NCBI RefSeq assembly: GCF_000803645.1
Contig: NZ_CP009122.1
Span: forward strand, 4,812,501-4,876,500
Direction: 5' to 3'
Length of the DNA stretch: 64,000 nt
Source: Sphingopyxis fribergensis
Lineage (GTDB): Bacteria; Pseudomonadota; Alphaproteobacteria; Sphingomonadales; Sphingomonadaceae
The notes below the pieces were generated by a model, which ran no database searches, was not told the origin of the DNA, and saw only the letters and a program-made list of their open reading frames with translations. Positions 36,237-58,261 of this stretch are shown piece by piece. How positions within the stretch are numbered: position 1 is the stretch's first letter; every line of letters starts with the position of its first letter. Made by a program: the position numbers and the translations under genes.

Positions 36237-36420
36237 TCGCAGCCTCTACGATCTGACCGACGGATAACCGCCGAAGCAGGCCCATCCAGCCGGACCTGGC
36301 GCGCACCCGATTGCGATAGCAGCAAGCGGTCTCGGCCGGCACCTGCGTCGGTGGTGCGATGTCCCGCCGCGAAGCGCGGCCCCCTTCGGCGGCCGCAGAG
36401 GGAGAGGAGAGAGGGGCCAG

Positions 36421-36462: not shown

Positions 36463-36473
36463 GGAGACACGCC

Positions 36474-37667: not shown

Positions 37668-37731
37668 GCAAATCTCGCGTTCGCCGGCGGCGTGGTCCTT
37701 TCCCTTCAGAGGGAGAGGGCTGCGCCGGAGC

Positions 37732-37778
37732 CATGACGGGCTGAGAGCCGGGAGAGAGTCTCGCGGCGGCCTGTCATG
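37732..37778 (+). ncRNA. Candidate structured leader RNA, copy 2
   Basis: Outer stem CATGACGGGC pairs with GCCTGTCATG (one wobble), TGAGA bulges on the 5' side, inner stem GCCGGGA pairs with TCGCGGC (one mismatch), and the loop is GAGAGTC. Several stem positions differ from copy 1 but stay paired. The 3' base of the stem touches the GGAG ribosome site of the ParB-like gene, whose start lies ten bases on. Confidence 0.6.
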
Positions 37779-37788
37779 GAGAAGCATC

Positions 37789-39906: not shown

Positions 39907-39924
39907 CGCCACCGACTATCATTC

Positions 39925-39960
39925 GGGGAGTTCGGCGCTGTGCCGGGCTCCCCATTTTTT
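39925..39960 (+). terminator. Rho-independent terminator after the ParB-like gene
   Basis: GGGGAG and CTCCCC pair around an inner CGGC/GCCG stem, followed by ATTTTTT. This is a canonical intrinsic terminator 18 bases after the ParB-like stop. Confidence 0.85.
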
Positions 39961-40095
39961 CGCTGGCCCTTGAAATCAGGACGCTCCGCGCGAACATCGG
40001 AGGTGTCCGGCAGGGGCTGCCAGACCGCCGCATGCCTTCCTGACCCGCTCCACCGGGCGGGATCGCGCGCAGCCTGTCTTGTGAAGGAGGCCCCC

Positions 40096-41130
40096 ATGTC
40101 GAGTCCTGCAGCCGAGGTCGCGCGACGCCTCGCCGACGATGCCGAGGCGGTTTGCCGCCGATATCTCTCCCATGGACGCCGCGAGGGACATTATTGGATG
40201 GTCGGTGACGTCCGTAATTCGCCGGGCCGCAGCCTTTACGTTCGCCTTTCTGGCACCGCCGACGGTCTTCGGTCCGCTGGCAAATGGACCGATGCCGCCA
40301 GCGGCGATCATGGCGATCTTCTCGATGTCATCGCCGCGAGCTGCGGCCATACATCCTTCCGCGACACGCTCGACGAGGCGCGCCGCTTTCTGAGCCTGCC
40401 TGCCGTCATGCCCGGCGACCGAAATCCGGCTCCGCGTAAAGCACCGCGCGGCACCCCCGAGGCCGCCCGCAGGCTATGGGCCGGATCGAAGCCGCTCAGC
40501 GGCACCCTTGCCCGCGCCTATCTGTCTGCCCGCGCGATCGGCGACCTTCGCGATGCCGAATGGCTTCGTTTCCATCCCCATTGCTTCTATCATCCATCCG
40601 AGGACGACGCCCCCGATGTCCGCCGGGCATGGCCCGCCCTGATCGCGGCGATCACTGACGAGGCGGGCAATGTCACCGGAGTCCATCGCACCTGGCTCGA
40701 CTCGGCCGCCTGCGACAAGGCGCCGGTTGCCTATCCGCGGCGCGCCATGGGCCAATTGCTCGGTCATGGCGTTCGGTTCGGCACGTCGGCTGCGGTCATG
40801 GCGGCGGGCGAAGGCATCGAAACCATCCTGTCTTTGCGTCAGATCACACCAGCCCTGCCGATGATCGCCGCCCTTTCGGCGGCCCATCTGGGAGCGTTGA
40901 CCTTCCCGCGCGGACTGCAGCGACTGTATGTCGCGCGTGACGACGACCCGGCGGGTGCGGCCGCCTTCGGGACGCTTTGCGACCGAGCCCGGCCGCTCGG
41001 CATCGAGGTCATCGCGCTCGAAGCGGATCGCGGCGACTTCAATGCCGATCTCATGACACTCGGCCGACAGCGAATGATCGGCTCGCTTCGATCCCAGCTC
41101 CGGACTGCGGATCGTTCACTCCTGCTCTGA
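40096..41130 (+). CDS. Toprim/primase-like protein (DUF7146-type)
   Basis: A 344-residue protein with an N-terminal zinc-free primase-like segment (CRRYLSHGRREGHYWMVGDVRNSPGRSLYVRL-like) and a C-terminal Toprim fold: VMAAGEGIETILSLRQ (the glutamate motif) and RLYVARDDDPAGAAAF (the DxD motif). Such proteins prime DNA synthesis on plasmids and phages and also occur on integrative elements. AAGGAGG precedes ATG 40096. The upstream frame to 39940 is not used, since it would cross the terminator. Confidence 0.82.
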   Translation: MSSPAAEVARRLADDAEAVCRRYLSHGRREGHYWMVGDVRNSPGRSLYVRLSGTADGLRSAGKWTDAASGDHGDLLDVIAASCGHTSFRDTLDEARRFLSLPAVMPGDRNPAPRKAPRGTPEAARRLWAGSKPLSGTLARAYLSARAIGDLRDAEWLRFHPHCFYHPSEDDAPDVRRAWPALIAAITDEAGNVTGVHRTWLDSAACDKAPVAYPRRAMGQLLGHGVRFGTSAAVMAAGEGIETILSLRQITPALPMIAALSAAHLGALTFPRGLQRLYVARDDDPAGAAAFGTLCDRARPLGIEVIALEADRGDFNADLMTLGRQRMIGSLRSQLRTADRSLLL

Positions 41131-41253
41131 CGCCTCAGCATCGGCCGGAAGGAGGGCGGGCGAGGGATGGACCGGTGCTGATGCAGCACCACGGGGTGGC
41201 CGCGCTCCGGCCTTCGCAAGAGGGCGACTGCGGCGAACCGTACCGGGCCCGCA

Positions 41254-41333
41254 ATGGCGGGCGGGCGGCTATTTTCCGCCGGGGCGCGCGGCGCCCCTTT
41301 GCATCGCGAAACAAAATAGCCTTCGCCCGCCAT
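41254..41333. repeat. 80-base imperfect inverted repeat before the DUF2493 gene
   Basis: The 5' arm ATGGCGGGCG plus GGCTATTTT pairs with AAAATAGCC plus CGCCCGCCAT, broken only by a 3/2 internal loop. The apical part contains another hairpin, GGGGCGC with GCGCCCC. It occupies the 317-base gap 41131-41447, where no gene is seen. The element could be a structured RNA or a transfer or recombination site. Confidence 0.6.
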
Positions 41334-41447
41334 CCTCCGCCTTCGGCTTCGGCCGCGGCCGGGGCCGCGGTGCAGTTCGGTACGGCGCGCCGCGAGGGGT
41401 CGCCGCGAAGGCCGCGCGAGCGCGGCAAAACCCGACTGGAGACGATC

Positions 41448-42380
41448 ATGTTGAGCCCCACCGAACCCGCCGACGATCCTGCCGAAGCCGGCGCCACCCA
41501 TCTCCTCCTTCAGGAGATGCAACTCTTCGGACATCGCCCCTTCGAAGACGAACCCGACCCGCGCCCGCTGCCCGATGCCCGCCTGGCGGCCGGCGCTGTC
41601 GCCGACATATTCGATGCCCTTGTCGGCTGTCTCGACGATACGCGGATCGAGCCCGATCTCGAAGAGCTCCTCTGGAACGTCGTCAACCTCTTCCACCGCG
41701 CGGGGGAGCGGGTCGAACGCAGCCTCGACGACAATGAACAGGCGCAACGCCGAGCCCAGCGCGAACAGGACGGGAGCGAGATCCGGTCGGTCGAGCTCGA
41801 ACGCCTCGTGCAGCAGGGGATCAGCCTGATCGAACGGCGCGATGCGATGGAATTCTTCCGCGAAAGCGCCGCCGAACAATTTCGGACCCACTGCCGCAAG
41901 GCCTGGTCACCGCGCACCGGATCGCGCGCGCATCACCGGTCGATGACCGCGGCGATGATCGACAGCCGTGACTTTCTCGACGCGCGGTTGCGCCAGAAAG
42001 CGGCTGCACTTCTTCCCGAGGGCACGCGCATCCTGTTCACCGGCGGCGCTGATGTCGACGATCATAGGGCGATCTGGGATGCTCTCGATCGCGCACGCGA
42101 CCGCCATCCCGATATGATCCTGCTCCATGGGGCAACGCCGACGGGGGCCGAACGCATCGCCGCCTGCTGGGCCGAAACCCGCAAGGTGACGCAGGTGGCC
42201 TTCCGTCCCGACTGGAGCCGGCATGGCAAGTCCGCGCCGTTCAAGCGCAACGACCGGATGCTCGAAGCACTGCCGGTCGGGGTCATCATCTTCCCCGGCA
42301 CCGGCATCCAGGACAATCTCGCCGACAAGGCTGCGAAGATCGGCCTTCCGGTCTGGGATTTTCGCAAGCGGGGCCGATGA
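41448..42380 (+). CDS. DUF2493 (SLOG-fold) protein
   Basis: A 310-residue protein. The first 200 residues are helical and acidic (DIFDALVGCLDDTRIEPDLEELLWNVVNLFHRAGERV). The C-terminal 120 residues form the DUF2493 domain: RILFTGGADVDDHRAIWDALDR, LLHGATPTGAERIAACWAE and GVIIFPGTGIQDNLADKAAKIGLPVWDF, a Rossmann-like SLOG fold that probably binds a nucleotide-derived ligand. It is a standard companion of DUF932 and ParB-like genes on alphaproteobacterial islands. The start is ATG 41448 with CTGGAGA upstream. Confidence 0.85.
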   Translation: MLSPTEPADDPAEAGATHLLLQEMQLFGHRPFEDEPDPRPLPDARLAAGAVADIFDALVGCLDDTRIEPDLEELLWNVVNLFHRAGERVERSLDDNEQAQRRAQREQDGSEIRSVELERLVQQGISLIERRDAMEFFRESAAEQFRTHCRKAWSPRTGSRAHHRSMTAAMIDSRDFLDARLRQKAAALLPEGTRILFTGGADVDDHRAIWDALDRARDRHPDMILLHGATPTGAERIAACWAETRKVTQVAFRPDWSRHGKSAPFKRNDRMLEALPVGVIIFPGTGIQDNLADKAAKIGLPVWDFRKRGR

Positions 42381-42437
42381 CAGCCGTCGGGCATTCGGAC
42401 GCTTTCGGCAAAATGGCCCCAATCTGGTTCTATCTCC

Positions 42438-42460
42438 CGAATATAATTGAAATATATTCG
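42438..42460. promoter_or_regulatory. AT-rich dyad upstream of luxR
   Basis: CGAATATA and TATATTCG are perfect 8-base arms around seven bases, in the AT-rich 242-base space before the luxR gene. The half-site ATATTCG recurs in the space before the lasso precursors. It may be an operator or the 3' end of the DUF2493 transcript. Confidence 0.45.
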
Positions 42461-42622
42461 TAACATCCGCAAATTTACATCATTGTAGATCGCTATGACC
42501 AGCGGCGATCACCCGTCGCCGGCGGGACGGCCCATTGAGAGGGCACCGCTCGCAGGCCATGACGAGGAGCAGGGACGGTCGGCCGACTTGGCGACGACTG
42601 CCGTCCGCTGCCATGGGTCGCA

Positions 42623-43366
42623 ATGCCGACGATGGACGCTGCGCATGCTTTTGCGCTCGACGTCACGCGGGTGAAGGATGCGGCGGGTCTGGCCGATCTG
42701 CTGGCGGAGGCCTGCGCGCGCATGGGCTGTTCCTGGTTCGCGCTGAGCCACCATGTCGATTTCCTCGCGGCTCCCGACAGGGGTGTTCGCGTCCACAACT
42801 ATCCCGAGGATTGGGCCCGCTGGTTTGACGAGCGCGGCCTAGGGCTTACCGATCCGGTGCATCGCGCCAGTCACCGCAGTCTCGAGGGTTTCTTCTGGCG
42901 CAACATGAAGCCGCTTTCGGGCGAACGCCCCGAGGACGAACTGGTTCTCAGTGAGGCGCAGCGGCACGGAATAGGAGACGGGCTTACCATACCGGCGCAT
43001 ATTCCTGGCGAGGCGCATGGTTCGGTGTCCTTCGCCTGGACGCCGGGGATCGCCGCGAATGATATGGCGCTCCTCTTTGCCCGAATGATCGGTGGGCCAG
43101 CCTTCGAAGCCGCGCGGCTGCTCGCCAATCCCGAACTCGCGCAGGTCGGGCCGCGGCTGACGGACCGCCAGCGCGAATGTCTGATCTTGTCCGCCAAAGG
43201 CAACAGTGCCCCGAAGGTTGGACGCATCCTCGATCTCAGTCCCGACACGGTTCGCGAGCATCTTCGCAACGCGCGGCAGCGTTACGACGCGAATGGTGGG
43301 ATCACGCTGACGGTGCGCGCGCTTTATGCCGGCGACCTCAGCTACGAGGATATCGCCAAGCGCTGA
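42623..43366 (+). CDS. luxR: LuxR-family quorum-sensing regulator
   Basis: A 247-residue LuxR-type protein. The N-terminal autoinducer-binding domain shows the conserved pattern of aromatic and acidic residues (SWFALSHHVDF, YPEDWARWFDERGLGLTDPVHRAS, FFW). The C-terminal LuxR helix-turn-helix runs LTDRQRECLILSAKGNSAPKVGRILDLSPDTVREHLRNA. It should bind the acyl-homoserine lactone made by the LuxI homologue 91 bases downstream and act on nearby promoters. The start is ATG 42623 or 42632. Confidence 0.88.
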   Translation: MPTMDAAHAFALDVTRVKDAAGLADLLAEACARMGCSWFALSHHVDFLAAPDRGVRVHNYPEDWARWFDERGLGLTDPVHRASHRSLEGFFWRNMKPLSGERPEDELVLSEAQRHGIGDGLTIPAHIPGEAHGSVSFAWTPGIAANDMALLFARMIGGPAFEAARLLANPELAQVGPRLTDRQRECLILSAKGNSAPKVGRILDLSPDTVREHLRNARQRYDANGGITLTVRALYAGDLSYEDIAKR

Positions 43367-43457
43367 ACTTTTTTCGCCGACACCCCCCGATCGTGCTATG
43401 GTGGAGTGGCAAAAAGCCGTTCAATTGGATGGTCTCTTTCGAAAAGGAGACACATCC

Positions 43458-44075
43458 ATGCTTTCGGTAATCGACCATTCCAACCGCGCGCACGAGCATC
43501 AATTGCTCCGCGCGATGTTCGAGGCGCGTAAGCGCGTCTTCATCGATCTTCTGAAATGGGACCTGCCGGTGCTCGCCGACCGGTTCGAGATCGATCATTT
43601 CGACGATCCCCATGCGACCTATCTGATCGTCGGCGATCAGGAGGGCGGGCATCTCGCCTCGGCGCGCCTCCTTCCCACCACGCGCCCGGCTCTTCTCGAT
43701 GGTCTCTTCCCCGGCCTCGTCGACGGCATCCCGCCGTCCGGCCCCGACATCTTCGAGATCACGCGCTTCTGCCTGTCGCCGGGGATCGGTGCGCGCCAGC
43801 GCCGCACCGCGCGCGACACGCTTCTTGTCGGGCTGGTAGACTATGCGCTCGCCAACGGCATCCGCTCCTACACCGGCGTCGCAGAGCTCGACTGGTTCGC
43901 TCAGATCCGGACCTTTGGCTGGGACTGCAAGGCGCTCGGCGAAGCCGGCATTTACGACGGCCGCGCGCTGACCTCGCTGCGGATCGAGATCGACGCCGAC
44001 ACCCCCGCAAGGCTCAAGTCGGCGGGGATTGTTTCGGGCAGCGCTGCGACGCCGGTCGCGGCCAATGCAGCGTGA
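43458..44075 (+). CDS. luxI: Acyl-homoserine-lactone synthase
   Basis: A 205-residue LuxI-family enzyme. The conserved core is present: RKRVFIDLLKWDLP, the acidic EIDHFDD loop, SARLLPTTRP and EITRFCL, the residues that bind S-adenosylmethionine and the acyl chain. It makes the autoinducer sensed by the adjacent LuxR. GAAAAGGAG precedes ATG 43458. It is followed 13 bases later by a phytanoyl-CoA dioxygenase-family gene, a pairing I recall from other sphingomonads. Confidence 0.9.
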   Translation: MLSVIDHSNRAHEHQLLRAMFEARKRVFIDLLKWDLPVLADRFEIDHFDDPHATYLIVGDQEGGHLASARLLPTTRPALLDGLFPGLVDGIPPSGPDIFEITRFCLSPGIGARQRRTARDTLLVGLVDYALANGIRSYTGVAELDWFAQIRTFGWDCKALGEAGIYDGRALTSLRIEIDADTPARLKSAGIVSGSAATPVAANAA

Positions 44076-44088
44076 AAGGAGCGGGACC

Positions 44089-45000
44089 ATGATTACCGAT
44101 ATCGCTCCAGTCGATAGCCACCAGCCGCCCTCTGCTTCGATGCGGGCGCTCAAGGAAAACGGCTACGCGATCGTTCGCGAAGCCGTTCCCGCCGAGCTGA
44201 TCGCGGCGATCGATCGCGACCTCGATCCGCGATACGCCGCGACGCCCTTTTGCGAGGGCGGCTTCTATGGGACACGCACCAAGCGCTTCGGCCGCCTGCT
44301 CATCCGCTCGCCGCATGTTGGCGCATTGGTCATGAACCCGGCGATCCTCGCCCTCGCCGAGGCCGCGCTCGGCGACTGGTGTGAGCGCATCCAGCTCAAT
44401 CTCGCCCAAGCGATTGAGCTGCATCCGGGAGCGCTTCCGCAATTCCCGCACCGCGATCAAGATATGTGGCAGGGCACACTCGGTGAGGTCGAATATCTCG
44501 TGAATGTGATGTGGCCGCTGACGCCCTTCACCACCGAGAATGGCGCCACGATCATCTGGCCGAAAAGCCATGGGCTCGAGGCGCTCATCGAGGAACCGGC
44601 GGAGGAGCCGATCATTGCCGAGACCATGCCGGGCGATGCCATCGTCTTCCTGGGTTCGACGCTCCACGGAGCCGGCGGCAATTGCAGCGCGTCGGTGCGG
44701 CGCGGGATCATCATCAGCTACTGCCTTGGCTGGCTGAAACCATATGAGAACCAGTGGCTCGCCTATCCACCCGACGTCGCGAAGGACTTTCCGCCGGAGC
44801 TGGCGGCCTTGACCGGCTATGTACAGCATCGCCCAAACCTCGGCAACTTCGAGGGCCAGTGTCCCTCGATCCTGTTCCGCGGCTATCCCCCCGACCCGAT
44901 CGCAGCCGTTGATGCGCTCCGGCCCGACCAGCAGGCGCTTCTTGCCGACTATATCGGCGACCAAAGATCGGCGGGCGGAGACGGGACGCTCGCGGCATGA
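44089..45000 (+). CDS. Phytanoyl-CoA dioxygenase-family (Fe/2-oxoglutarate) protein
   Basis: A 303-residue PhyH-family protein. The iron-binding facial triad is visible: His and Asp in FPHRDQDMW (about residue 124) and the distal His in GSTLHGAGGN, with the 2-oxoglutarate-binding Arg in SVRRGIIIS. It hydroxylates a small substrate; which one is unknown. The close link to luxI suggests a signal-related substrate, while the lasso operon downstream raises the alternative of peptide tailoring. AAAGGAG precedes the ATG. It overlaps the next gene (ATGA). Confidence 0.85.
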   Translation: MITDIAPVDSHQPPSASMRALKENGYAIVREAVPAELIAAIDRDLDPRYAATPFCEGGFYGTRTKRFGRLLIRSPHVGALVMNPAILALAEAALGDWCERIQLNLAQAIELHPGALPQFPHRDQDMWQGTLGEVEYLVNVMWPLTPFTTENGATIIWPKSHGLEALIEEPAEEPIIAETMPGDAIVFLGSTLHGAGGNCSASVRRGIIISYCLGWLKPYENQWLAYPPDVAKDFPPELAALTGYVQHRPNLGNFEGQCPSILFRGYPPDPIAAVDALRPDQQALLADYIGDQRSAGGDGTLAA

Positions 45001-45635
45001 GCCCGGGCACCACGATGGAGCGGGTCTATCTGGACCTCAAGGCGCGTATCCTGTCGGGCACCTATCCGCCCGGTACGCGCCTCGAGGCGGCGCAGCTCGC
45101 AAAGTCGCTGGCGGCCAGCGCTACCCCCGTTCGCGATGCCCTGTATCGCCTGTCGGGCGAGCGGATCATCGAGAGCTGGCATCAGGAGGGGTTTCGGCAG
45201 CCCCTTCTTAATGAGGCGGATTTGGTCGAACTCTATTGGTGGACCGGCGCCCTTCTCTCGCTGGCGTTGAAGGGGAGGACGCCGAGGCCCGATTTGCCAG
45301 GCGGACTGATCTCGCTCGCGAATCACCAGGCCTATCCTGAGGGGCTCAATGGCCTCTTCCGGACCATCGCAATCGGCAGCAGCAACGGCGAACTTCGCGC
45401 TACCATCATCAATTGTGTCGAGCGAAGCATGACAATCCGCACATTGGAGGTTCGTGTCGATGGGTCTGTGGGCGACGCGCTCACGGCGATGGCGGACGAT
45501 TACCGGTTCGGTCGATGGAGCGCTTTACGCAGTAAAATCACGCGCTTCCATCGCCGCCGCGCGTCATATGCCGGCCGCGTCGCGGCCGAAATCCGGCGCC
45601 GGTCCGAGCCGCTGGATAATATTCGGAGAATATGA
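44997..45635 (+). CDS. GntR-family regulator at the head of the lasso operon
   Basis: A 212-residue protein with a GntR winged helix (ERVYLDLKARILSGTYPPGTRLEAAQLAKSLAASATPVRDALYRLSGERII-like, residues 8-58). The C-terminal half (about 150 residues) is helical and does not show the usual FCD metal or ligand motifs clearly. It is translationally coupled to the PhyH gene and ends 82 bases before the first lasso precursor. The position suggests it controls the lasso peptide genes; this is inference. Confidence 0.82.
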   Translation: MSPGTTMERVYLDLKARILSGTYPPGTRLEAAQLAKSLAASATPVRDALYRLSGERIIESWHQEGFRQPLLNEADLVELYWWTGALLSLALKGRTPRPDLPGGLISLANHQAYPEGLNGLFRTIAIGSSNGELRATIINCVERSMTIRTLEVRVDGSVGDALTAMADDYRFGRWSALRSKITRFHRRRASYAGRVAAEIRRRSEPLDNIRRI

Positions 45636-45656
45636 GTCGTATTAAATTCCTATACG
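45619..45656. promoter_or_regulatory. Two small dyads before the lasso precursors
   Basis: ATATTC-GGA-GAATAT (45619-45633) overlaps the end of the GntR gene, and CGTAT / ATACG (45638-45656) follows. Both lie in the 100 bases before the first precursor and may be operator sites for LuxR, GntR or the ECF sigma factor. Confidence 0.4.
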
Positions 45657-45717
45657 GCGCGGCCTCCCTAGCTTCGAGAGGGCCGCAATTCCGCGGCAAT
45701 CATGGAAGGAAGCGATC

Positions 45718-45840
45718 ATGGACCGCGAACTCAATGAGTTGATCGAACTCGGCAGCGTTACCGGCGACACCGCGGGCAGCGAAGACGTCGGCATCGAAAC
45801 GAACGGCAAGTTCAAGCCGCTCGGACTCAGCCAGGACTGA
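45718..45840 (+). CDS. Lasso peptide precursor 1
   Basis: A 40-residue precursor. The leader is 19 residues, MDRELNELIELGSVTGDTA, with the conserved leader signature LxELGxVxxxTxG and Thr at position -2. The predicted core is 21 residues: ring GSEDVGIE with Gly1 linked to Glu8, then tail TNGKFKPLGLSQD. No other acidic residue stands at position 7, 8 or 9, so an 8-residue ring is the only usual choice. GGAAGGAAG precedes the ATG. It is followed by a hairpin and a second precursor. I do not recall a published lasso peptide with this core. Confidence 0.88.
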   Translation: MDRELNELIELGSVTGDTAGSEDVGIETNGKFKPLGLSQD

Positions 45841-45848
45841 CCAGCGCT

Positions 45849-45877
45849 CCGGGGACCGGCCCGAGGCCGGCCCCCGG
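45849..45877 (+). terminator. Hairpin after lasso precursor 1
   Basis: Arms CCGGGGACCGGCC and GGCCGGCCCCCGG pair over 13 bases with one mismatch around CGA. There is no T-run. It probably stabilises the 3' end of a precursor-only transcript or causes partial termination. Confidence 0.6.
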
Positions 45878-45908
45878 TCGTTTCCTTGTGTCTGAGAAGG
45901 GAAGCAAC

Positions 45909-46031
45909 ATGGAACGCGATAACGACACGCTCGTCGAACTCGGCTCGGTCTCCGGTGACACCGCCGGCGACTGGGGCCTGTATGTCGAAGCCGGCGGCCG
46001 TATGCCGACGCCCGGTCTCGTCCAGGACTGA
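45909..46031 (+). CDS. Lasso peptide precursor 2
   Basis: A second 40-residue precursor, 69 bases after the first. Leader MERDNDTLVELGSVSGDTA shares the LxELGSVSGDTA block with precursor 1. The predicted core is again 21 residues: ring GDWGLYVE closed by Gly1-Glu8, then tail AGGRMPTPGLVQD. Cores 1 and 2 share the C-terminal pattern G-L-x-Q-D but differ in the loop and ring, so the operon should make two related peptides. GAAGGGAAG precedes the ATG. Confidence 0.88.
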   Translation: MERDNDTLVELGSVSGDTAGDWGLYVEAGGRMPTPGLVQD

Positions 46032-46040
46032 CTGGTGTAT

Positions 46041-46072
46041 CCGGGAGCCGTCCAGCATCGAGCGGCTCCCGG
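46041..46072 (+). terminator. Hairpin after lasso precursor 2
   Basis: CCGGGAGCCG and CGGCTCCCGG are perfect 10-base arms around 12 bases, ending 15 bases before the maturation-protein start. There is no T-run, so partial read-through into the biosynthetic genes is expected. Confidence 0.6.
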
Positions 46073-46087
46073 GTCTCGCGCGGCGCC

Positions 46088-46747
46088 ATGACGACCGGCT
46101 GGAAACTGGCAACCGGAACGGGCTATTGCGAAGTCGACGGAGATCTCGTCTTCCTCGACCTTGTCCGGGACAAATATTTCGCGCTGCGCGGGCAAGACCG
46201 CGCGGCCTTCGAGCGGCTTCGGGCAGGCGAGCCGAACGACAGCGAGGCGATGGGGCGTCTTGTGGCGACAGGATTCCTCGCACGGTCGAGCGAGCCGACG
46301 AAGCTCGATCCGGCCTCGCCTCACATTCCGGCCAACGATTTGTCGGCGGTCGCCGACGGACCGACATCGCTCCGCATGGGTTTCGCAGCGTCCCGCGCGC
46401 TGCGCTGGGCAAGACGTTCGATGCGGCCAAACCGGATCGCGTCAACGGTGGAAGCCATGCGGAACGCAAAGCTTCGGCTCGGCGTGCCGGGCGCCGAAGC
46501 GGCGGTTCGGGGCATCGCTTCATCCTATGCAGCATCGCGCTGGATGGCGCGGACCCCGCCACGATGTTTGATCGACGCGCTAGCGCTCGACCACATCCTC
46601 CTGTCGCACGGCCTAGGCGCGCGGCTGGTTTTTGGGGTGCGTCTCAGCCCCTTTGCCGCACATTGCTGGTTACAGAGTCCCGGCGCGGTGTTGACCGGAA
46701 CCTCGGCCGAGGCCCGCAACTTCACACCAATATTGGCGATCGGATGA
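46088..46747 (+). CDS. Lasso peptide B protein (recognition and leader protease, fused)
   Basis: A 219-residue fused B1-B2 protein. Residues 1-80 form the PqqD-like recognition element that binds the precursor leader (GYCEVDGDLVFLDLVRDKYFALRG). Residues 120-219 form the transglutaminase-like cysteine protease: Cys160 in PPRCLIDALAL and His192 in FAAHCW, which cut the leader after the conserved Thr-x site. It starts 15 bases after the second hairpin and its stop overlaps the start of the cyclase gene. Confidence 0.9.
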   Translation: MTTGWKLATGTGYCEVDGDLVFLDLVRDKYFALRGQDRAAFERLRAGEPNDSEAMGRLVATGFLARSSEPTKLDPASPHIPANDLSAVADGPTSLRMGFAASRALRWARRSMRPNRIASTVEAMRNAKLRLGVPGAEAAVRGIASSYAASRWMARTPPRCLIDALALDHILLSHGLGARLVFGVRLSPFAAHCWLQSPGAVLTGTSAEARNFTPILAIG

Positions 46748-48444
46748 AACGCGGCATTCTCGCACTTGTGGGAACCACGTCCGGGGGGCTGGCGCTTGCG
46801 GCAGCTGCCGAGCGCCACGCATTGCGATGCGTTCAGAATGCGGGCGCACTGACCGTCTATGCAGGCGCCGGCATTGCTGACCAAGTGATGGAAAGCGGTG
46901 CCCTATTGCTCGGGGACATTTATTCGCTTTCGGGCGCTACCTGCCACGCGCCCGGCGACGGCTGGGGAAGCTATCTGGCCTTCACCGTCGACGATGCATC
47001 GGTCGAGATCGCGCGCGCCGCGCTCACCGGCATGCCGATCTACTGGACCCGGTTTGAAGACGGCTTTCTGCTTTGGAACGATCTCGAGCTGGTCGCGCCA
47101 ATGCTTGGCATCGGGTCATTCGATTGGCAGTTCATCGCCGGGACTTTGGCGTACGCCAATCTGCGGACCGAACGGACCGGGCTTGAAGGTGTGAGCGAGC
47201 TATTGCCCGGCAGCTGTGCCAAGTTTTTGGCCGAGGAGTCAGCTGTCCAGACTTTGTGGACGCCTTGGAAGGCTGTCTCGCAGCCCGATCTTCGACCAGT
47301 CGCTGAACTTGCGCTAGACCTCGAACGTCGGTTCCTTGGGTGCTTGCGAGGCTGGTGTGGGAATCGGAGCGACATCCTGCTCGAGCTGTCGGGCGGACTC
47401 GACTCTTCGATCGTCGCGGCAGGCCTGTCATCGGCGCAAGCCAATTTCTCTGCCGTCACTTTCGTTTCGTCCGGTGCCGACGGCGACGAGCGTCCCTACG
47501 CGCGCGCCGTCGCGGCGCATTGCGGTGCTGAGCTTCTCGAAATGCCCCACGCGGATACCGGCATCGATCTGGTATCGCTACCGCCTGTCCTTCACGCGCG
47601 GCCCTCCGCCTATGGCGTGCTCGGCGGGATCGACGATGCCTTCGAATCGGCGTTCCCCGTTTCCGATGCCGCGATCTTCGGGGGCATCGGTGGGGACAAT
47701 ATCTTCGATTTCGACACGAGCGTCGCGCCGATCCTCGACGCCTTTCGTCATTTCGGGCCGCGGCGCCCTGCATTCGAGACGATGCGCGACGTCGCGCGCG
47801 CGGGCGATGCAACGGTCTGGCAGGCCGCTCGCTTGGCGTATCGGGCGGTGCGGGACGGCCCGAGCGGCTGGCGCCGTGAGACCGGCTTCTGCGTCGCGGA
47901 CCAGGTGCCGGCCTCGCCGCCGGCTCATCCCTGGGATGCGGGCGAGGAGGATGCGCCGCGCGGCAAGCGCAACCATGTGCGCGCGCTTCGGCGCATCCTC
48001 GACTTCGTCGACCGGCCGCGCCGCTGGCGGGACCGCGATGTCGTAGCGCCGCTGCTTTCACAGCCGGTGGTAGAATTTTGCCTTACTGTTCCGAGCTGGG
48101 CGTGGGTGAGGGGCGGTCGCGACCGCGCGGTTGCCCGCGCCGCATTCGCGTCGCGACTTCCGCCGGAGGTCGTTTGGAGGCGCGGCAAAGGGCGGCTCGA
48201 TTCCCTCTGTACCGCAAGCTATCTTCGCCAGCGCGGTGCGCTCGCCGACCTCCTGCTCGGCGGGCGGCTGGCGGAACGCGGGCTGCTGGACAAGCCTGCG
48301 ATCGAGACCTACCTCGCGCACGATCTCGTCGAGGGCGACTTCGCCTATTTCCGGCTGCTCGAAATCGCCGATGTCGAACGTTGGGTGCGGTCGGTAGAAG
48401 CCTCGCCCTTGATGGGGCCGAGCAGCCGCCAGCGACGATACTGA
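46744..48444 (+). CDS. Lasso cyclase (asparagine synthetase-like C protein)
   Basis: A 566-residue protein with an N-terminal glutaminase-like region without catalytic Cys2 (residues 1-190) and a C-terminal asparagine-synthetase domain with the ATP-pyrophosphatase loop LSGGLDSS (216-222). It adenylates the ring Glu8 side chain and forms the isopeptide bond with Gly1 around the threaded tail. The start overlaps the B gene stop (ATGA). The 3' end overlaps the convergent isopeptidase gene by 100 bases. Confidence 0.92.
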   Translation: MKRGILALVGTTSGGLALAAAAERHALRCVQNAGALTVYAGAGIADQVMESGALLLGDIYSLSGATCHAPGDGWGSYLAFTVDDASVEIARAALTGMPIYWTRFEDGFLLWNDLELVAPMLGIGSFDWQFIAGTLAYANLRTERTGLEGVSELLPGSCAKFLAEESAVQTLWTPWKAVSQPDLRPVAELALDLERRFLGCLRGWCGNRSDILLELSGGLDSSIVAAGLSSAQANFSAVTFVSSGADGDERPYARAVAAHCGAELLEMPHADTGIDLVSLPPVLHARPSAYGVLGGIDDAFESAFPVSDAAIFGGIGGDNIFDFDTSVAPILDAFRHFGPRRPAFETMRDVARAGDATVWQAARLAYRAVRDGPSGWRRETGFCVADQVPASPPAHPWDAGEEDAPRGKRNHVRALRRILDFVDRPRRWRDRDVVAPLLSQPVVEFCLTVPSWAWVRGGRDRAVARAAFASRLPPEVVWRRGKGRLDSLCTASYLRQRGALADLLLGGRLAERGLLDKPAIETYLAHDLVEGDFAYFRLLEIADVERWVRSVEASPLMGPSSRQRRY

Positions 48445-50318
48445 TCGGCCTTCGCTGGATCGGGGTCGATCTCGCCTTTGAGCCAGAAGCGGAACCAGTC
48501 GAGATTGCGCTCATAGGCCGCGAGCTTCTGGCGGGGTTCGACCTTCAGATGCGGGGCGAGGGGGAAGAGGTGGGTCTCGCCGAGACCGTTGGTAGCAAGC
48601 TTGCTCATCAGTTCGGCCGACTGGCGCGCTTCGCTCTCGGGAAGTTGCAGCAGCATCGGCGCCGTGATCATATCAATATTGAGCGCGGCCGAAAGCGCCT
48701 GCCACTCGGCAGGTTCGGTATCCGGCGGGCCGAGCTTCCAGTTCTGCCGGATATTGCGGGCGAATGTCTCGCGGCCCGGGCGAGCATTGTACCAGTAATA
48801 CGTGGGTTCGATCTGGACCGAGGCGATCGAAACCGCCTTGAGAAGATCGCTGTGCATGGCAGTCCATACCGCAACCTCGCTTCCGAAGCTGAGACCGCCC
48901 ATGCCGACGCGGCTGCGATCTATCGTTCCGCGCCGGTCGAGGGTGTCGATCGCGGCCCGCACGGCTTCCATGCCGATCTGGTAGCGATCCTGCGCGATCT
49001 CGCCGCCTGGGAGGACGTCGATGCAGAGCGATGCGATGCCGCCCGCGGCAAGCGCGCGCAGAGGCCATTCGTCGCCTGTTCCGCCGCGCAGATATCCATT
49101 GCAGCGATAGTAGGTGACGAAGAGCGGCAGCCGCCCGGGGATCTTCGGGCGGATGAGTATGCCCGACGCACGGCTGCCGCTCACCTGCCACGCGATCGTT
49201 TCGACAAGGAGCCCGTCGCGGCCAGGAAATGAATTTGGGGAATCGATGATCTTCTTGCGGCCAGAGGCCTCGATCCGGACGAGGCGGGGTGAGACCGACG
49301 CGGCCGCCTCGACGCAAAAGATTGCTTTTTCGCCTGCAGCGCAGGGCTTGCTGTCGCTCCGCCCACTCGAGAGCTGTCCTGCCGAGACCGCGATCATCTT
49401 GAACTTCGCCGACGCGGGCGTCCACACATGCAGGGTCGTTTGGCCCGATTGGGCGCGGAGTGCGATCAGGACGCGGCCGTCGGCAAGCCCGCTCCGCCAT
49501 GCGATACGCTCCGCATCGTTCGGGCAGCCGCTCGCCGCGACGCAGACGCCGCGCTGCCGAAGAATGCCGCGGAGGCTTTCGGGGATGTCCGGCCCGGGCG
49601 CCGGCTTGAGCAGGGCGCGTTCAGCGTCGTTCGCCGGGCGCTCGCTGGTGCCGGATGCGTCTCGGGCAACGACAGCGCGCGGTGTATCTTCGAGCAGCGG
49701 CACGCGGTCGAACCAGTCACCAGAGAAGCGCTGCGTCGAAGGACGTCCATTGATTGAGGCGCCGCGATAGAGGGGTTGGGCAAGATCGACGCGCGCGTCG
49801 AACAAGATACCGGTGTCGCGCTCGGCCTCCTCTGCCCGCGCGATCGCATCGCGCGGAGGTCCTTCGCGCGAGATGACGGTACCGTCAGCGGCGATGGCAA
49901 AGGCCTCGATTTCGCCTTCGCTTGGCCCGATCTCGTGGAATCCCGACCCGTCGATGGGACTCACCCACAGGCCGATTCGTCCGTCGACAAGGGCACGGAC
50001 AACGACTGCCTTGCCGTCGGGCATCCATGTGGCTTCGCCGGGCAGGACGCTCCCGGCGTCGTTCCACATCGCGGTGCCGAGTCGTCCGAGCGCGCGGGGA
50101 GGGGCGGTGGCGTCCGTGGGCGCTAGATACCAGTCGATATCGATCCGGTTGGTGACGGTGGATGGGCGCTCGACCCGATAGGCGATCCAATTTCCGTCAG
50201 GAGAGACCGCGAGCCCCGACAGGTCGGCAATCTCGGCGATTTCGCGCGGGGTCGTCTGGCTGGCCGCGGGCGATGCCGCGGCCAGGAGACAGCCGAGGAT
50301 CGCGGCTTTGCTCACCAT
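48345..50318 (-). CDS. Lasso peptide isopeptidase
   Basis: A 657-residue serine hydrolase of the AtxE type: signal peptide (to about residue 20), a beta-propeller-like region (to about 370), and a C-terminal alpha/beta hydrolase with GMGGLSFGSEVA (Ser477). A Glu at 561 and His590 (FPLAPHLKVEPRQKLAAYERNLDWFRFWLKGE-like) complete the likely triad, matching my memory of AtxE2 (Ser-Glu-His). It opens the isopeptide ring of imported lasso peptides. It is adjacent to the lasso operon on the opposite strand, and its start overlaps the receptor gene. Confidence 0.88.
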   Translation of the reverse strand: MVSKAAILGCLLAAASPAASQTTPREIAEIADLSGLAVSPDGNWIAYRVERPSTVTNRIDIDWYLAPTDATAPPRALGRLGTAMWNDAGSVLPGEATWMPDGKAVVVRALVDGRIGLWVSPIDGSGFHEIGPSEGEIEAFAIAADGTVISREGPPRDAIARAEEAERDTGILFDARVDLAQPLYRGASINGRPSTQRFSGDWFDRVPLLEDTPRAVVARDASGTSERPANDAERALLKPAPGPDIPESLRGILRQRGVCVAASGCPNDAERIAWRSGLADGRVLIALRAQSGQTTLHVWTPASAKFKMIAVSAGQLSSGRSDSKPCAAGEKAIFCVEAAASVSPRLVRIEASGRKKIIDSPNSFPGRDGLLVETIAWQVSGSRASGILIRPKIPGRLPLFVTYYRCNGYLRGGTGDEWPLRALAAGGIASLCIDVLPGGEIAQDRYQIGMEAVRAAIDTLDRRGTIDRSRVGMGGLSFGSEVAVWTAMHSDLLKAVSIASVQIEPTYYWYNARPGRETFARNIRQNWKLGPPDTEPAEWQALSAALNIDMITAPMLLQLPESEARQSAELMSKLATNGLGETHLFPLAPHLKVEPRQKLAAYERNLDWFRFWLKGEIDPDPAKADQYRRWRLLGPIKGEASTDRTQRSTSAISSSRK

Positions 50319-53248
50319 CGGATGGTGGCCTGGAGCGACATCATGCGGCCGAGCGGGCTCGCCTTCTCGGGGTCGTAGCCGAGCGCGGACGACACGCTGC
50401 GGTTGTTCACATAGGGCGGATCCTTGTCGAACAGGTTGGTGATTCCAAGGCTGAGCCGCAGGCCCCGCCCTTCCACGCCATCGCCGCCCCCGATGCGCTG
50501 CGAGATGCTGAGGTCGAACGTGGTCCAAGAACCGACCCGCTCCATCGGCGTCACGACCTGGTTGAGATAGCCGTCGATGTAGTTGACGAAGGCATTGGCC
50601 GAGAAGCCGCCCGTCGCCCAACCGAAGCGACCGCGAAGGCGCCATTTGACCGGCTTGGCATAGGTGCCGACGACATCGACCTGCGGCCCGCCCGGAGCCA
50701 GTTGCTGTTTTATCGAGAAGATATGCGTGCCCGCGATGCCGAGGTCGAGCGTTCCGCCCGCGAATGCGGGGGAATAGCCGACATCGAAATCGATCCCGCG
50801 CTGGCGTTCGGCGGCGAGGTTGCGGATGCGACCGTCCAGGATCGCGGCGACCTGGCCCGGCGCGATGTTTGCTGCGTTCACGAAGCTGGGACGTGCGAAA
50901 TATCCCTCTACCAGTGCCAGCGACGGATTGTCGGTGATCAGCCCGCCGAAGCGCGCCCGGTCGACAAGAAAGCGGGTGTAATCCTCGCTCGCCGTCCCGA
51001 TGCGGTCGCGATAGTCGACGTCATAATAGGTGACCGACGCCTTGAAACCGGCAAGCGACGAGGGGGCGACGTCGATGCCCGCGGTCCAGGTCGTCGCTCT
51101 TTCGGGACCTACGTCCGGTGCATAGCCGAACAGGCCGAGTATGTTGGTCGTGCCCGTCGGCGAAGCGGGGTCGGGGACCGCTTCGGTCTGAAACAGCGAA
51201 ATCGCCTCGCCGATGAGCTCGTCGAAGGCGGGCGCGCGGAAGGATTTTCCGTAGGACCCGCGCAGCGCAATGCCCTGGAACGGTTCCCATCGGACGCCGA
51301 CCTTGGGATTTTCGCTTCGGCCGACGTCGCTGTATTTCTCGGCGCGCCCGGCCAACGAAATGTCGAGCCTGCGGAAACCCGGCATCCCGTTATCCGGCCC
51401 GAAGACCGGCACGAGCAGTTCAGCATAGGCTGCGCGAACCTTCCGCACGCTCGGAATGATGTCGAATGGGTCGGTGAAGGGCGTCGCGAGGCTGAATCCG
51501 TTGACGGTGTAATAGTCGAAATTCTCGCGGCGATACTCCGCGCCGATCGCGAGCCGGACCTCGCCGCCGGGCAGGCGGAAGAGCGGGCCGTCACCGCGGA
51601 GCGCCGCCGACCAGCTTTCGAAATCATTGACCGACTGGAATGTGCCGCGAATGCTGTCGATGGTGACCGGATTGTTTGCGGTGCCGTTTCCGAAGACGTT
51701 GAATGCGGTTGCTCGGTTGGTGTCGGCAAGCGCCGCAGCAAGGCGCGGGCGATTGACGAGATTGGCCTTGTTCGCGATGCCGCGCTGATGGCCATAGGCG
51801 CCGCCGACCTGCACGCGCCAGCGGCCAATTTCCTGGTCGAAGCCCGCTGAGGCGGTGAGGCCGCGCGCCCGGCCGCTGTCGATCTGCGGTCCCAAGTCGT
51901 TCACGAAGCGATAGGCGACGCTGACCGGCTGGTTCGTGCCGATCGGATCAACGTAGAAAGGATTGGTAACCGGCACCCGCGCGGCCTGGATGAAGTCTCC
52001 GGTACTGACGCGGCTGTAGCGGCGCTGCGCCGCGAGCGCGCTTGCGCGAAAGGTCAACGTGTCGGTAAGGTCGAATTCGGCAGCGGCATAAAGGCTGTGA
52101 ATGCGCGTTCTCGGCAAAATGTCGCTGTTCACGCGACCGTCGTAGCGGTTCTGGACACCTGGAATCAGCTGAGCGGCAGTCAATGCGCGGCCGTCTTGTC
52201 CGGCCGGGATGCCAAACCGCTGTCCATTCGCGGCCGTAATCGTCCCGGGCACCGCGAAGTTGGTCCGATAGTCGGGGCCTCCGAAGGCCCGCAGATCCTC
52301 GCGCGCGAAATCGCGGGAGGCGCCCGCGAGCGCACCGCGCTGCGAGTATTGGTAAGCAAGCACCAGCCGTGCGCCGCCGAAGTCACGACCAAAGATTTGG
52401 CCGAACTGCAACTCGGTCGTATCGCCATCGGCGGTGCCCGCGCGCAGCATTGTCTCGGCTCCCTCGAAGCGACTCCGCATCCGCACGTTCACCACCCCGG
52501 CGACCGCGTCGGCGCCGTAGATCGCCGATGCGCCGTCGATCAGCACTTCGATCCGTTCGACCGCGCCTACCGGGATGAGCGAGATGTCGGCGAAGACGCC
52601 GCCGATCCCGCCAAGCGCTGGGCGCGCATTGTCGATGAGGACGAGGGTCGACGAGGTCCCGAGGCCGCGCAGGTTGATGCTCGAGCCGAAAGTCGAATCC
52701 GAACCCCCGCCGTTCCGGGTCGTGGTCGTCGAGACTGCCTCGTTGGGGCCGCCGCCAAATGCCTGTGGCAGTGATTGGAGCATCTGCTGAACAGTGCCAT
52801 AGCCGCTCTTTTCGATGGCTTCGCGGTCGATGGTGACGACCGGAGAACCGGTCGGTCCTGCACCGCGAATGCGCGAGCCTGTAACGATGATCGCTTCGCC
52901 GTTCGTCTCAGTCGATCCAGTCTCCCCGGCATCGACGTTTCCCGAGCGAAGGACCCATGCGCCTTCGACGAGTTCGATCGTCAGGCCCGTGCCGGTGAGG
53001 AGTCGGGAAAGGGCGGCGTCGGGAGAGAGTCGCCCGCGGACACGGTTGCTGCGTCGGCCTTCGAGCAGGCTCGAAGCCGCGATGACCTCGCGGCCGGAAA
53101 TGTCCGAATATTTGCGAAGTGCGTCGCTAAGGCGCTGACCCTCGATATTGTAGGTCTGCTCGCCCGTCTGCGCACACGCGCTGGGTGCATAGAGTGCGGT
53201 CGCCGAGACGCCCGAAGCCAGAACGGCCGCGAAAAATTTCATCGTCAT
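50312..53248 (-). CDS. FecA-type TonB receptor with STN signalling domain
   Basis: A 978-residue receptor. After the signal peptide comes an STN domain (residues 30-105, with LSDALRKYSDISGREVIAASSL), which couples ligand binding to the FecR/FecI pair. Then a TonB box region (IIVTGSRIRGAG), a plug with VLIDGASAIYGADAVAGVVNV, and the barrel to the terminal LQATIRW. Its stop overlaps the isopeptidase start, and FecR and the sigma factor follow on the same strand, so it is probably a lasso-peptide receptor that senses and imports the product. Confidence 0.93.
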   Translation of the reverse strand: MTMKFFAAVLASGVSATALYAPSACAQTGEQTYNIEGQRLSDALRKYSDISGREVIAASSLLEGRRSNRVRGRLSPDAALSRLLTGTGLTIELVEGAWVLRSGNVDAGETGSTETNGEAIIVTGSRIRGAGPTGSPVVTIDREAIEKSGYGTVQQMLQSLPQAFGGGPNEAVSTTTTRNGGGSDSTFGSSINLRGLGTSSTLVLIDNARPALGGIGGVFADISLIPVGAVERIEVLIDGASAIYGADAVAGVVNVRMRSRFEGAETMLRAGTADGDTTELQFGQIFGRDFGGARLVLAYQYSQRGALAGASRDFAREDLRAFGGPDYRTNFAVPGTITAANGQRFGIPAGQDGRALTAAQLIPGVQNRYDGRVNSDILPRTRIHSLYAAAEFDLTDTLTFRASALAAQRRYSRVSTGDFIQAARVPVTNPFYVDPIGTNQPVSVAYRFVNDLGPQIDSGRARGLTASAGFDQEIGRWRVQVGGAYGHQRGIANKANLVNRPRLAAALADTNRATAFNVFGNGTANNPVTIDSIRGTFQSVNDFESWSAALRGDGPLFRLPGGEVRLAIGAEYRRENFDYYTVNGFSLATPFTDPFDIIPSVRKVRAAYAELLVPVFGPDNGMPGFRRLDISLAGRAEKYSDVGRSENPKVGVRWEPFQGIALRGSYGKSFRAPAFDELIGEAISLFQTEAVPDPASPTGTTNILGLFGYAPDVGPERATTWTAGIDVAPSSLAGFKASVTYYDVDYRDRIGTASEDYTRFLVDRARFGGLITDNPSLALVEGYFARPSFVNAANIAPGQVAAILDGRIRNLAAERQRGIDFDVGYSPAFAGGTLDLGIAGTHIFSIKQQLAPGGPQVDVVGTYAKPVKWRLRGRFGWATGGFSANAFVNYIDGYLNQVVTPMERVGSWTTFDLSISQRIGGGDGVEGRGLRLSLGITNLFDKDPPYVNNRSVSSALGYDPEKASPLGRMMSLQATIRW

Positions 53249-53335
53249 TCATCCCTCCCGTGCGGCCGATTTTGGCCGTCTGAAGGGAAAAAATGACGGG
53301 GGCTCCGAACACCCTATGGGTTTTTCTTGGGTGTC

Positions 53336-54256
53336 CTACTCGGATTTCGCGCCGAGAATCGGTCCGTTCGCACCGAACTCGACCTTGAGATCGAGCGCGG
53401 CGCCGAGCTTCAGCGCAAGTTTCCGGGCATCGGTCATGTCGAAGCGTCCCGTCACCTGCAGCGATGCCAGCGCCGGATCGGCCAAGCTGATCTTGACGCC
53501 ATTCTCGCGGCCAGCGCGGTCGAGGATCGCGCCAAGCGGGAGATTGTCGGCCCACAGTGATTTGGCCGGGGCGTTCGCCTCCTCGCTCTTGATCGTCTGG
53601 GGGCCGGTCGACCTGACCTCGGCGCGTTCGCCGGGGCGGAGGCGAAGTGCCTTTCCGCCTTCGAGGCGCCGCACTTCGACCGAGCCTTCGACCAGCGCGA
53701 TGCGCGGAACATCCGCGCGGAGATCGACCTCGAAGATGGTGCCGAGCGCGCGCGTGACCGAATCTCCGGCCTCGACGAGAAAGGGACGCGACGCGTCGTG
53801 TGCGACCTCGAACCTGGCTCGGCCGTCATACAGAATGACGCGGCGTTCGCCGTCCGAGAAGCGCGTCTCGATGCGGGCGCCGTCCATCAGCGTCACGCGC
53901 GTCCCGTCGGCGAGCTGGCTCTCGCCTTGCGCCGAATTGGTGGCGATGATCGGCTGATCGCTGTCGCGGCCGACCAGATACCAGGCGAACCCGACCGCGA
54001 TCACCGCAGCGAGAATTGTGGCAAAAGCCCATCGCCGCCCGCCGGGTTCACGCTCCCGGGCATCGGCCCGAACATCGGCCTCGATCCGGGACGGCGACAT
54101 CGCCGCAGACCAGTTCCAATTGTCGCGCGCTTCGTCATAGGCCTTGGCGTTGTCCGGCTTGGCCAGCCATTCGTCGAACGCCGCCCGGTGCTGGTCGGCA
54201 TCGGGGCCCATCATCTTGTCGAGCCAGGCGGTGGCTTCGCTTTCGGCGCGGCTCAC
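53336..54256 (-). CDS. FecR-family anti-sigma regulator
   Basis: A 306-residue FecR: N-terminal DUF4880 (ATAWLDKMMGPDADQHRAAFDEWLAKPDNAKAYDE-like), one membrane helix (about 86-106), a FecR periplasmic domain (GTRVTLMDGARIETRFSDGERRVILYDGRARFEV-like) and a C-terminal receptor-contact domain. It passes the TonB receptor signal to the adjacent ECF sigma factor. The genes overlap by four bases. It is downstream of the sigma gene and upstream of the receptor, 87 bases before the receptor start. Confidence 0.9.
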   Translation of the reverse strand: MSRAESEATAWLDKMMGPDADQHRAAFDEWLAKPDNAKAYDEARDNWNWSAAMSPSRIEADVRADAREREPGGRRWAFATILAAVIAVGFAWYLVGRDSDQPIIATNSAQGESQLADGTRVTLMDGARIETRFSDGERRVILYDGRARFEVAHDASRPFLVEAGDSVTRALGTIFEVDLRADVPRIALVEGSVEVRRLEGGKALRLRPGERAEVRSTGPQTIKSEEANAPAKSLWADNLPLGAILDRAGRENGVKISLADPALASLQVTGRFDMTDARKLALKLGAALDLKVEFGANGPILGAKSE

Positions 54257-54831: not shown

Positions 54832-55103
54832 ACCTGCCGCCTTCCCGTTCGGGACGAAGGCGGCAAGCCGGGCGTTGAGAACTTGCTTAGCGAACAAGCG
54901 CCGCCGCCTTTAGCCCGAGGGCTTGGACATGCGCAGCGGCCACCCGGCAGGATGGAATAGGAAAACTAAGCTAAGCAGGTTCTCACGCCTGGCACCGTGC
55001 GCCTTGCCCGATGCACCTCAAAGCATAGCTTTGCCCCTGTCGCTTGCAAGCCGGCTGTGCGGAGATAGGTCCAGATCGAGTCAAATTCCTGCGGACCGCG
55101 AGG

Positions 55104-58241: not shown

Positions 58242-58261
58242 AAATCAGCAGGAGTATCGAC

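Follow-up and report, generated by a model that had tools for sequence, protein, structure and literature searches.

A window of 64,000 nucleotides of the Sphingopyxis fribergensis genome (assembly GCF_000803645.1, 4.99-Mb contig NZ_CP009122.1, positions 4,812,501 to 4,876,500 of the forward strand) carries, at about 42488-54897 counted from its first letter, a lasso peptide cluster that very likely makes two lasso peptides. On the + strand it reads LuxR-LuxI-PhyH-GntR-A1-A2-B-C, A1 and A2 being the precursors and B and C the maturation enzymes; facing these on the - strand are the isopeptidase E, a TonB-dependent receptor, a FecR-type regulator and an extracytoplasmic function (ECF) sigma factor. 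Precursors, B and C alone would make it an isopeptidase-type lasso cluster, a sort already known; what goes beyond that sort is a lasting pair of precursors, a link to quorum sensing and a movable unit of specificity. On balance we favour the explanation that the locus encodes an isopeptidase-type, density-timed and strain-specific peptide pair, which the producer and its kin would recapture. The genus-wide link to acyl-homoserine lactone (AHL) signalling, the co-diverging receptor and isopeptidase, and relatives that differ by a cassette all bear on the role that isopeptidase-type lasso peptides play for the cells producing them.

An earlier note, made from the sequence alone, had described a lasso operon with two related products: two tandem 40-residue precursors, each made of a leader of 19 residues that ends in Thr-Ala and a core of 21 that has Gly1 and Glu8, sharing an LxELGSVxGDTA leader block and a G-L-x-Q-D tail end, and, behind them, a fused B protein with Cys160 and His192 and then a cyclase. 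All of these elements are present, and the reading as a lasso operon is borne out by a lasso B2 protein, an Asn-synthase-type cyclase, a probable leader-binding domain and an Atxe2-family isopeptidase. The note had mentioned neither the genes upstream (LuxR, LuxI, PhyH, GntR) nor those downstream (isopeptidase, receptor, FecR, sigma factor), nor the conservation of the pair across the genus. A1 (45718-45840, +) is MDRELNELIELGSVTGDTA|GSEDVGIETNGKFKPLGLSQD and A2 (45909-46031, +) is MERDNDTLVELGSVSGDTA|GDWGLYVEAGGRMPTPGLVQD, the bar dividing leader from core; Gly1 and Glu8 in cores of 21 residues predict an 8-residue ring and a 13-residue tail. The calculated [M+2H]2+ values are 1087.042 for the A1 lasso and 1100.528 for the A2 lasso, against 1096.047 and 1109.533 for their linear forms. 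By eye, a Shine-Dalgarno-like stretch precedes the ATG of each. B and C stand beside a precursor with a penultimate leader Thr, Gly1 and an Asp or Glu at places 7-9, as expected of a lasso cluster, and the twin precursors offer two related cores to one enzyme set.

The comparison covered 32 window-type loci, that is near full-length matches, the window among them and the split matches L061 and L062 included; a second copy in genome G014, less similar places (at most 40% identity) and short pieces were left out. In G014 the cluster occurs twice on contig C12 (142 kb), as a mirror image equidistant from both ends, which is perhaps an assembly artefact. Five loci that are almost the same over 17.7 kb (99.8-100% identity per gene) were rejected as independent evidence: their farther aligned stretches are 96-100% identical, several stretches being without alignment, and as near kin they were counted once. 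The identical cyclase, with the same genes, is found in Sphingopyxis sp. H053, LC363 and S. terrae.

Two precursors in tandem are present in 20 of the 32 loci, which are all those whose cyclase is at least 51% identical to that of the window over its length; the 12 loci with one precursor have a cyclase at most 47% identical or a split match. Once identical ones were collapsed, the 20 loci yielded 14 distinct pairs, all 28 cores of which have length 21, Gly1, Glu8 and Gly11. At core place 12, A1 has Lys (12 of 14) or Leu (2 of 14) and A2 always Arg (14 of 14). The leader has 19 residues in 25 of the 28, 18 in one and 21 in two, and its penultimate Thr is replaced by Ala in a single case (A2 of L046). 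Mean core identity is 52% among A1, 60% among A2 and 44% between the A1 and A2 of the same locus, a separation that none of 2000 label permutations reached. Judged from their sequences, the precursors fall into two lasting classes, A1 and A2.

Searching with a profile of 33 precursors gave 142 proteins, of which 120 were listed; 102 of these were parsed into 88 unique cores, one of which is misparsed (53 residues), while 18 fell outside the parsing pattern and are absent from the core counts. Among the matches listed, the other 87 unique cores all have length 21 and Gly11, followed by Arg12 in 49, Lys12 in 35 and Leu12 in 3. Mean column identity over the 33 precursors is 79% in the leaders versus 58% in the cores, and the loop and tail residues of the cores vary widely among loci. 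Both precursors align over nearly full length with the subterisin and benenodin families and score below both curated cut-offs (21.8 bits for A1 and 25.3 for A2 against the benenodin family NF033522, cut-off 33; 20.8 and 23.4 against the subterisin family PF24178, cut-off 27); four of their relatives carry the NCBI name 'benenodin family lasso peptide'. A text search of open-access papers, which did not extend to lasso databases, found neither core by its first 13 residues, nor any of three related strings.

B (46088-46747, +) passes the cut-off of the lasso B2 family (NF033537, 69.2 bits versus 33), and its model has a mean predicted local distance difference test score of 91.2. The five best Foldseek matches to the N-terminal part of that model are chains of TbiB1 and rank 7 is another lasso B1; the E-values are weak (0.08-0.48, none reaching 0.001). 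Going by the modelled fold, this part is probably a lasso B1-like leader-binding domain, fused to the Cys protease. Cys160 and His192 are kept and the third residue is replaced: Gly204 occupies what we take to be the third place of the Cys-His-Asp triad of B2 proteins such as McjB. Twelve residues past the His, the matches listed (120 of 347 homologues) have Gly in 118 cases and Cys in 2, and three other B proteins of the same genome have Asp or Glu at this place. As the family score is above the cut-off, we kept the gene as B despite the changed triad. C (46744-48444, +) is the lasso cyclase of Asn-synthase type (PF00733, 82 bits). Sequence searches of the PDB with B and with C gave no match.

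E (48345-50318, -; 657 residues from an ATG picked by eye, in an open reading frame (ORF) that opens at 50645) lies above the cut-off of the Atxe2 family (NF033523, 476.4 bits versus 400), and its best PDB sequence match is AtxE2 (5txc, 1.6e-32). Its residues are Ser586, Glu670 and His699 in ORF numbering; the Ser aligns with the residue replaced by Ala in structure 5txe of AtxE2, and the His is aligned too, which together with the family score marks E as a lasso isopeptidase. Glu670 is aligned with an AtxE2 Asp that we take to be catalytic; all 31 window-type loci that could be read, the window among them, have Glu there, and two other isopeptidases of the same genome (L063 and L064) have Asp. 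That Asp, missing from E, is not a curated criterion of NF033523. Being clade-wide, the active-site changes of B and E are not taken for decay, and their constancy makes them a test of how far such triads bend.

Matches to E exceed 400 residues in 31 of the 32 window-type loci and matches to the receptor exceed 600 residues in 30. The receptor (50312-53248, -) has an STN signalling domain, a plug and a barrel (PF07660, PF07715 and PF00593, all above cut-off), and with the FecR-type anti-sigma regulator (53336-54256, -; PF04773, 56.6 bits, cut-off 24) and the FecI-type ECF sigma factor (54253-54897, -; PF08281, 63.3 bits on the scanned part 54253-54759) it forms a surface-signalling set of FecI/FecR type. 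The GntR gene, the TonB-dependent receptor and the sigma and anti-sigma genes agree with the definition of an isopeptidase-type cluster in the available part of a review (PMC9266682). At their ends the frames of E and C have 100 bases in common, and E, with its likely start at 50318, shares 7 bases with the end of the receptor gene. A stretch like CACCCCCAGACGGCCAT lies ahead of the receptor gene, just above 53248, and recurs in most of 20 aligned loci.

Among the isopeptidases above cut-off in the genus, 10 of 88 have no B gene within 6 kb (for instance G000:C1:4572457-4574340); in G008 this is true of both isopeptidases, no B gene being found in that genome, and some other cases lie on short contigs. 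Two loci, L053 (14740-19692) and L061 (14880-17689, both in oriented coordinates), have a second isopeptidase and receptor beside a one-precursor cluster, as if an older cassette had remained; in L053 the extra genes are accompanied by a piece of a cyclase.

The divergence of the genes suggests that the cluster is built of two modules. Over the 14 distinct two-precursor loci, the distances of A1 track those of A2 (r = 0.56, and 0.45 once C is removed, with a permutation share of 0.002). In the order A1, A2, they also correlate with those of E (0.54, 0.53) and the receptor (0.57, 0.54), less with C (0.42, 0.49) and B (0.29, 0.28), and not with LuxI (-0.26, -0.20) or GntR (-0.07, -0.10). As far as sequence distances tell, precursors, E and receptor diverge together, and apart from LuxI and GntR.

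Two relatives display what would be the exchange of one module. In L062 (genome G055), LuxR, LuxI, PhyH and GntR are 93-96% identical to those of the window, whereas the A region is 35% identical, with one precursor missing, B 57%, C 56%, E 63% and the whole receptor 71%; identity is again about 95% from the N-terminal STN part of the receptor through FecR/FecI (mean of twenty 100-base steps, L050 14300-16300). The first hundred or so residues of the L062 receptor protein are window-like and its plug is of another type. L054 (G037) has the same edges as L062, with regulators 86-95% identical to the window in DNA and with B, C, E and receptor proteins that share 94-99% identity with those of L062. 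As aligned, these two relatives have another type of sequence from the leader of A to the plug of the receptor, set between regulators that are 86-96% identical. Fast divergence without recombination would explain neither the sharp edges nor the change in precursor number. A chimeric cyclase in L061, suggested by two parts of unlike identity, was rejected: the match runs over two frames, and in 10 of 10 relatives compared it is the C-terminal part of the cyclase that is better conserved.

Such a pattern may also be expected of an antibacterial weapon aimed at close relatives, with quorum-timed release, uptake through a matching receptor, and E destroying the peptide that returns into its producer. 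The exchange of a peptide-isopeptidase-receptor unit at a fixed place resembles the diversification of bacteriocins with their immunity, the isopeptidases without a nearby B gene (some of them on short contigs) would be immunity without production, the second isopeptidase and receptor of L053 and L061 could be read in the same way, and capistruin, in the available text of PMC6963729, acts on close relatives of its maker. Against this, a receptor within the producer's own unit seems better suited to recapture than to killing, and the available part of PMC9266682 terms the function of the peptides of isopeptidase clusters enigmatic. We regard the weapon as somewhat unlikely, and prefer recapture by the producer or its kin, which is quite possibly the main job of the peptides.

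The front of the cluster is an AHL pair. LuxI (43458-44075, +; 205 residues from an ATG picked by eye, ORF opening at 43326; PF00765, 70.1 bits) has the R, F, W motif and is adjacent to a LuxR-type AHL-binding transcriptional regulator (42623-43366, +) with autoinducer-binding and helix-turn-helix domains (PF03472, 86.2 bits; PF00196, 32.3 bits; both above cut-off). They are followed by PhyH, an Fe(II)/2-oxoglutarate dioxygenase type (44089-45000, +; 303 residues from an ATG picked by eye, ORF opening at 44029; PF05721, 76.7 bits), whose HRD and distal His are retained by all 29 loci aligned, the window being one of them, and by a GntR-family regulator (44997-45635, +; PF00392, 55.2 bits). All four are found ahead of A-B-C in 29 of the 32 window-type loci.

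Across 71 genomes of the genus, a lasso B gene is present within 15 kb of 93 out of 121 LuxI genes, against about 2.4 expected at random places; conversely, of 145 B genes 90 have a LuxI within that distance. These counts include both mirror copies on the G014 contig. Two arrangements prevail: in 55 cases, the window type, LuxI lies about 3 kb upstream and on the same strand, and in 24 it lies about 10 kb downstream and on the opposite strand. In five inspected loci of the second arrangement LuxR-LuxI-PhyH-GntR lead toward a receptor gene on the same strand, and the position of the signalling module suggests that it stands at the head of the uptake side in these loci. Linkage holds for 22 of 40 LuxI genes from other genera of the family (about 0.5 expected); the counts outside the genus omit 10 LuxI rows that belong to the genus and the 12 LuxI rows with the lowest scores (below 30 bits), as well as the genus rows and one row below cut-off of the companion search. 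The genome of the window has six lasso B loci (G000 contigs 1 and 2: L025-L030, L063-L067), and L065 also has a LuxI, about 49% identical to that of the window.

Candidate control sites accompany these genes. In the gap between LuxR and LuxI the columns ACCCCC, TG and TATGG are invariant in 22 of 22 aligned gaps (window included), and this stretch (ACACCCCCC...TGnTATGG; 43380-43401, +) is probably the luxI promoter with an extended -10 box. A GATCGC...GCGATC dyad upstream of LuxR (42488-42510, +), recurrent by eye in many of 20 aligned loci, may be a regulator site. The 20-locus alignment also shows a conserved region ahead of A1 (45619-45697, +) with two candidate operators, each with one exact copy in the window: ATATTCGGAGAATAT (45619-45633), exact in only 6 of 20 loci, and GCCGCAATTCCGCGGC (45682-45697), exact in 15 of 20 with its arms kept in 19. 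By eye, the regions upstream of A1, LuxR and the receptor have no operator in common except a C-tract.

Fifteen LuxI loci were inspected out of 28 without a B gene within 20 kb. PhyH is present in 13 of the 15 (L110, one of the two exceptions, is cut by a contig end), so PhyH goes with LuxI and is placed in the signalling module; on the same count it was rejected as a lasso-tailoring hydroxylase, a role suggested by CanE (available part of PMC9266682). GntR was seen in 5 of 5 linked loci and in 3 of the 15 unlinked ones; these three may be lasso loci cut by contig ends or slightly beyond the limit, L118 being about 22 kb from B. That PhyH accompanies LuxI and not the lasso genes would also suit the view that LuxI, LuxR and PhyH are mere neighbours, the cluster lying beside a common quorum-sensing locus and outside its control. 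We find this unlikely in the face of a linkage that holds for most LuxI genes of the genus and falls mostly into two fixed arrangements, and quorum control of the lasso genes is the likely reading.

A different use of the same parts would be as carriers that import a metal or an organic substrate, siderophore-like, with E freeing the cargo. The STN receptor with FecR/FecI would fit such a function, and in the available text of PMC11006600 a sphingomonad Tn5 mutant in lasso B failed to grow on phenanthrene; by eye, however, the cores have no evident metal site, and their loop and tail residues differ widely across loci, and we consider carriers distinctly unlikely. Most improbable is a single working precursor with the other a relic or redundant copy, for although 12 of the 32 loci make do with one precursor, both are intact in the other 20 and the classes stay apart, and A1 or A2 as a relic was accordingly rejected.

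The favoured explanation, a density-timed and strain-specific peptide pair recaptured by its makers, would run as follows. B would bind the common leader and cleave after Thr-Ala, and C would close the ring around the tail, giving two lasso peptides with rings of 8 residues (Gly1 to Glu8) and tails of 13. Judging from position and conservation, LuxI/LuxR would time expression by cell density and GntR would gate the precursor promoter. The peptides would be exported from the cell and taken up by the cognate receptor, whose STN domain, by its type and that of its partners, would signal uptake to FecR/FecI, and E would open the recaptured peptides. Precursors, B, C, E and the plug and barrel of the receptor would be the unit exchanged among strains, the regulatory shell staying in place.

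Several points weigh against this explanation. The tie between LuxI and the lasso genes is one of position only, and since the genomes of the genus are related, the linkages between LuxI and B are not independent events; 28 of the 121 LuxI genes in the genus have no B gene within 15 kb, many of them lying on short contigs, and in other families of the order the share of linked LuxI is low (3 of 51, about 0.14 expected). Neighbouring genes may co-diverge by shared descent alone, which leaves the contrast with LuxI and GntR as the sole support for the modules. As to the exchanged cassettes, the cyclase of L062 is split over two frames, so that this cluster may be broken or misread (that of L054 is open). 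L052 (G042) has a precursor of the L062/L054 type with B (93%) and C (96%), directly followed by an E and a receptor reduced to end pieces of 61 and 81 residues, by deletion or through an assembly fault. The usual third triad residue is missing from B throughout the clade, uptake and FecR/FecI signalling rest on family resemblance, and no exporter was recognised among the scanned genes (42623-54897).

Comparison with known systems places the cluster among the isopeptidase type, for which the available part of PMC9266682 describes a GntR gene ahead of the precursor, a receptor and sigma/anti-sigma genes. The clusters of astexin-2/-3 (AtxE2) and benenodin-1 of Alphaproteobacteria are alike in precursor, B and C, GntR, isopeptidase, TonB-dependent receptor and sigma/anti-sigma genes; the present cluster differs from them by LuxR-LuxI-PhyH in front, two lasting precursor classes, Gly at the third triad place of B, and Glu for Asp in E. 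In the available text of PMC11006600, the sphingocin cluster of Sphingomonas BPH is similar in A, B and C, a divergent isopeptidase and receptor, and a lack of an ATP-binding cassette (ABC) exporter, but has a single precursor with a 22-residue core, and the words 'quorum' and 'LuxR' are absent from that text. Several precursors in one cluster are known for caulosegnins I-III, caulonodins, xanthomonins I-II and astexins-2 and -3 (PMC7549694, available part); the pair described here is kept as two classes in 14 distinct loci, class retention having been established for this pair only.

On the signalling side, sphingomonad luxR-luxI-phyH loci of like gene order appear in the available parts of PMC3704786, PMC4288048 and PMC5012321, with a GntR gene after phyH in one Novosphingobium locus. 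The locus described here, in contrast, continues into a lasso cluster, and the word 'lasso' is absent from those texts, as it is from the text of PMC11674143 and PMC11024222. There is already a precedent for tying a lasso peptide to AHL levels: ScmR is proposed to mediate the repression of capistruin in Burkholderia thailandensis, and its own expression increases with AHLs (PMC6963729, available text). In that case the link is indirect and capABCD comes with an ABC exporter, whereas here LuxI/LuxR lie inside a cluster with isopeptidase and receptor. We found no report of LuxI genes inside sphingomonad lasso clusters among the open-access papers searched, subscription papers and lasso databases being outside that search.

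A bolder generalisation, possible but doubtful as a whole, would have Sphingopyxis quorum sensing largely wired to lasso peptides, and the locus as a switchboard of strain identity. In it a fixed regulatory shell (LuxR, LuxI, PhyH and GntR; the receptor STN domain, FecR and FecI) would hold exchanged specificity cassettes (one or two cores, B, C, isopeptidase, plug and barrel), recombination would occur in the leader and near the STN-plug border, and cells would answer own-type peptides only; the two-peptide cassette would be a matched pair, one peptide per class.

Two GC-rich hairpins are predicted beside the precursors, one 3' of A1 (45841-45908, +; -35.1 kcal/mol for 45836-45910, z -2.63) and the other in the gap between A2 and B (46032-46087, +; -32.6 kcal/mol for 46028-46092, z -2.12); an Rfam scan of 40000-56000 at gathering scores gave no match, and neither did a plasmid search. 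Elsewhere in the window, ParB-like, DUF7146/Toprim and YspA-type SLOG genes lie directly upstream of the cluster (37453-42380), perhaps as part of a mobile or integrated element, and a weak DUF932 match falls at 36351-37667. A frame with a nucleotidyltransferase (Polbeta) and a HEPN domain (58039-59598) is possibly a gene of defence or toxin-antitoxin type. One run of genes at 19720-31425, with two TonB-dependent receptors, a solute-binding protein, parts of an ABC transporter and a pyridoxal-phosphate enzyme of Cys/Met metabolism, may be an uptake locus for sulfur compounds, and 8013-17990 contains metal-handling genes, among them one for a CopB protein and one for a P-type metal ATPase that has YHS and heavy-metal-binding domains.

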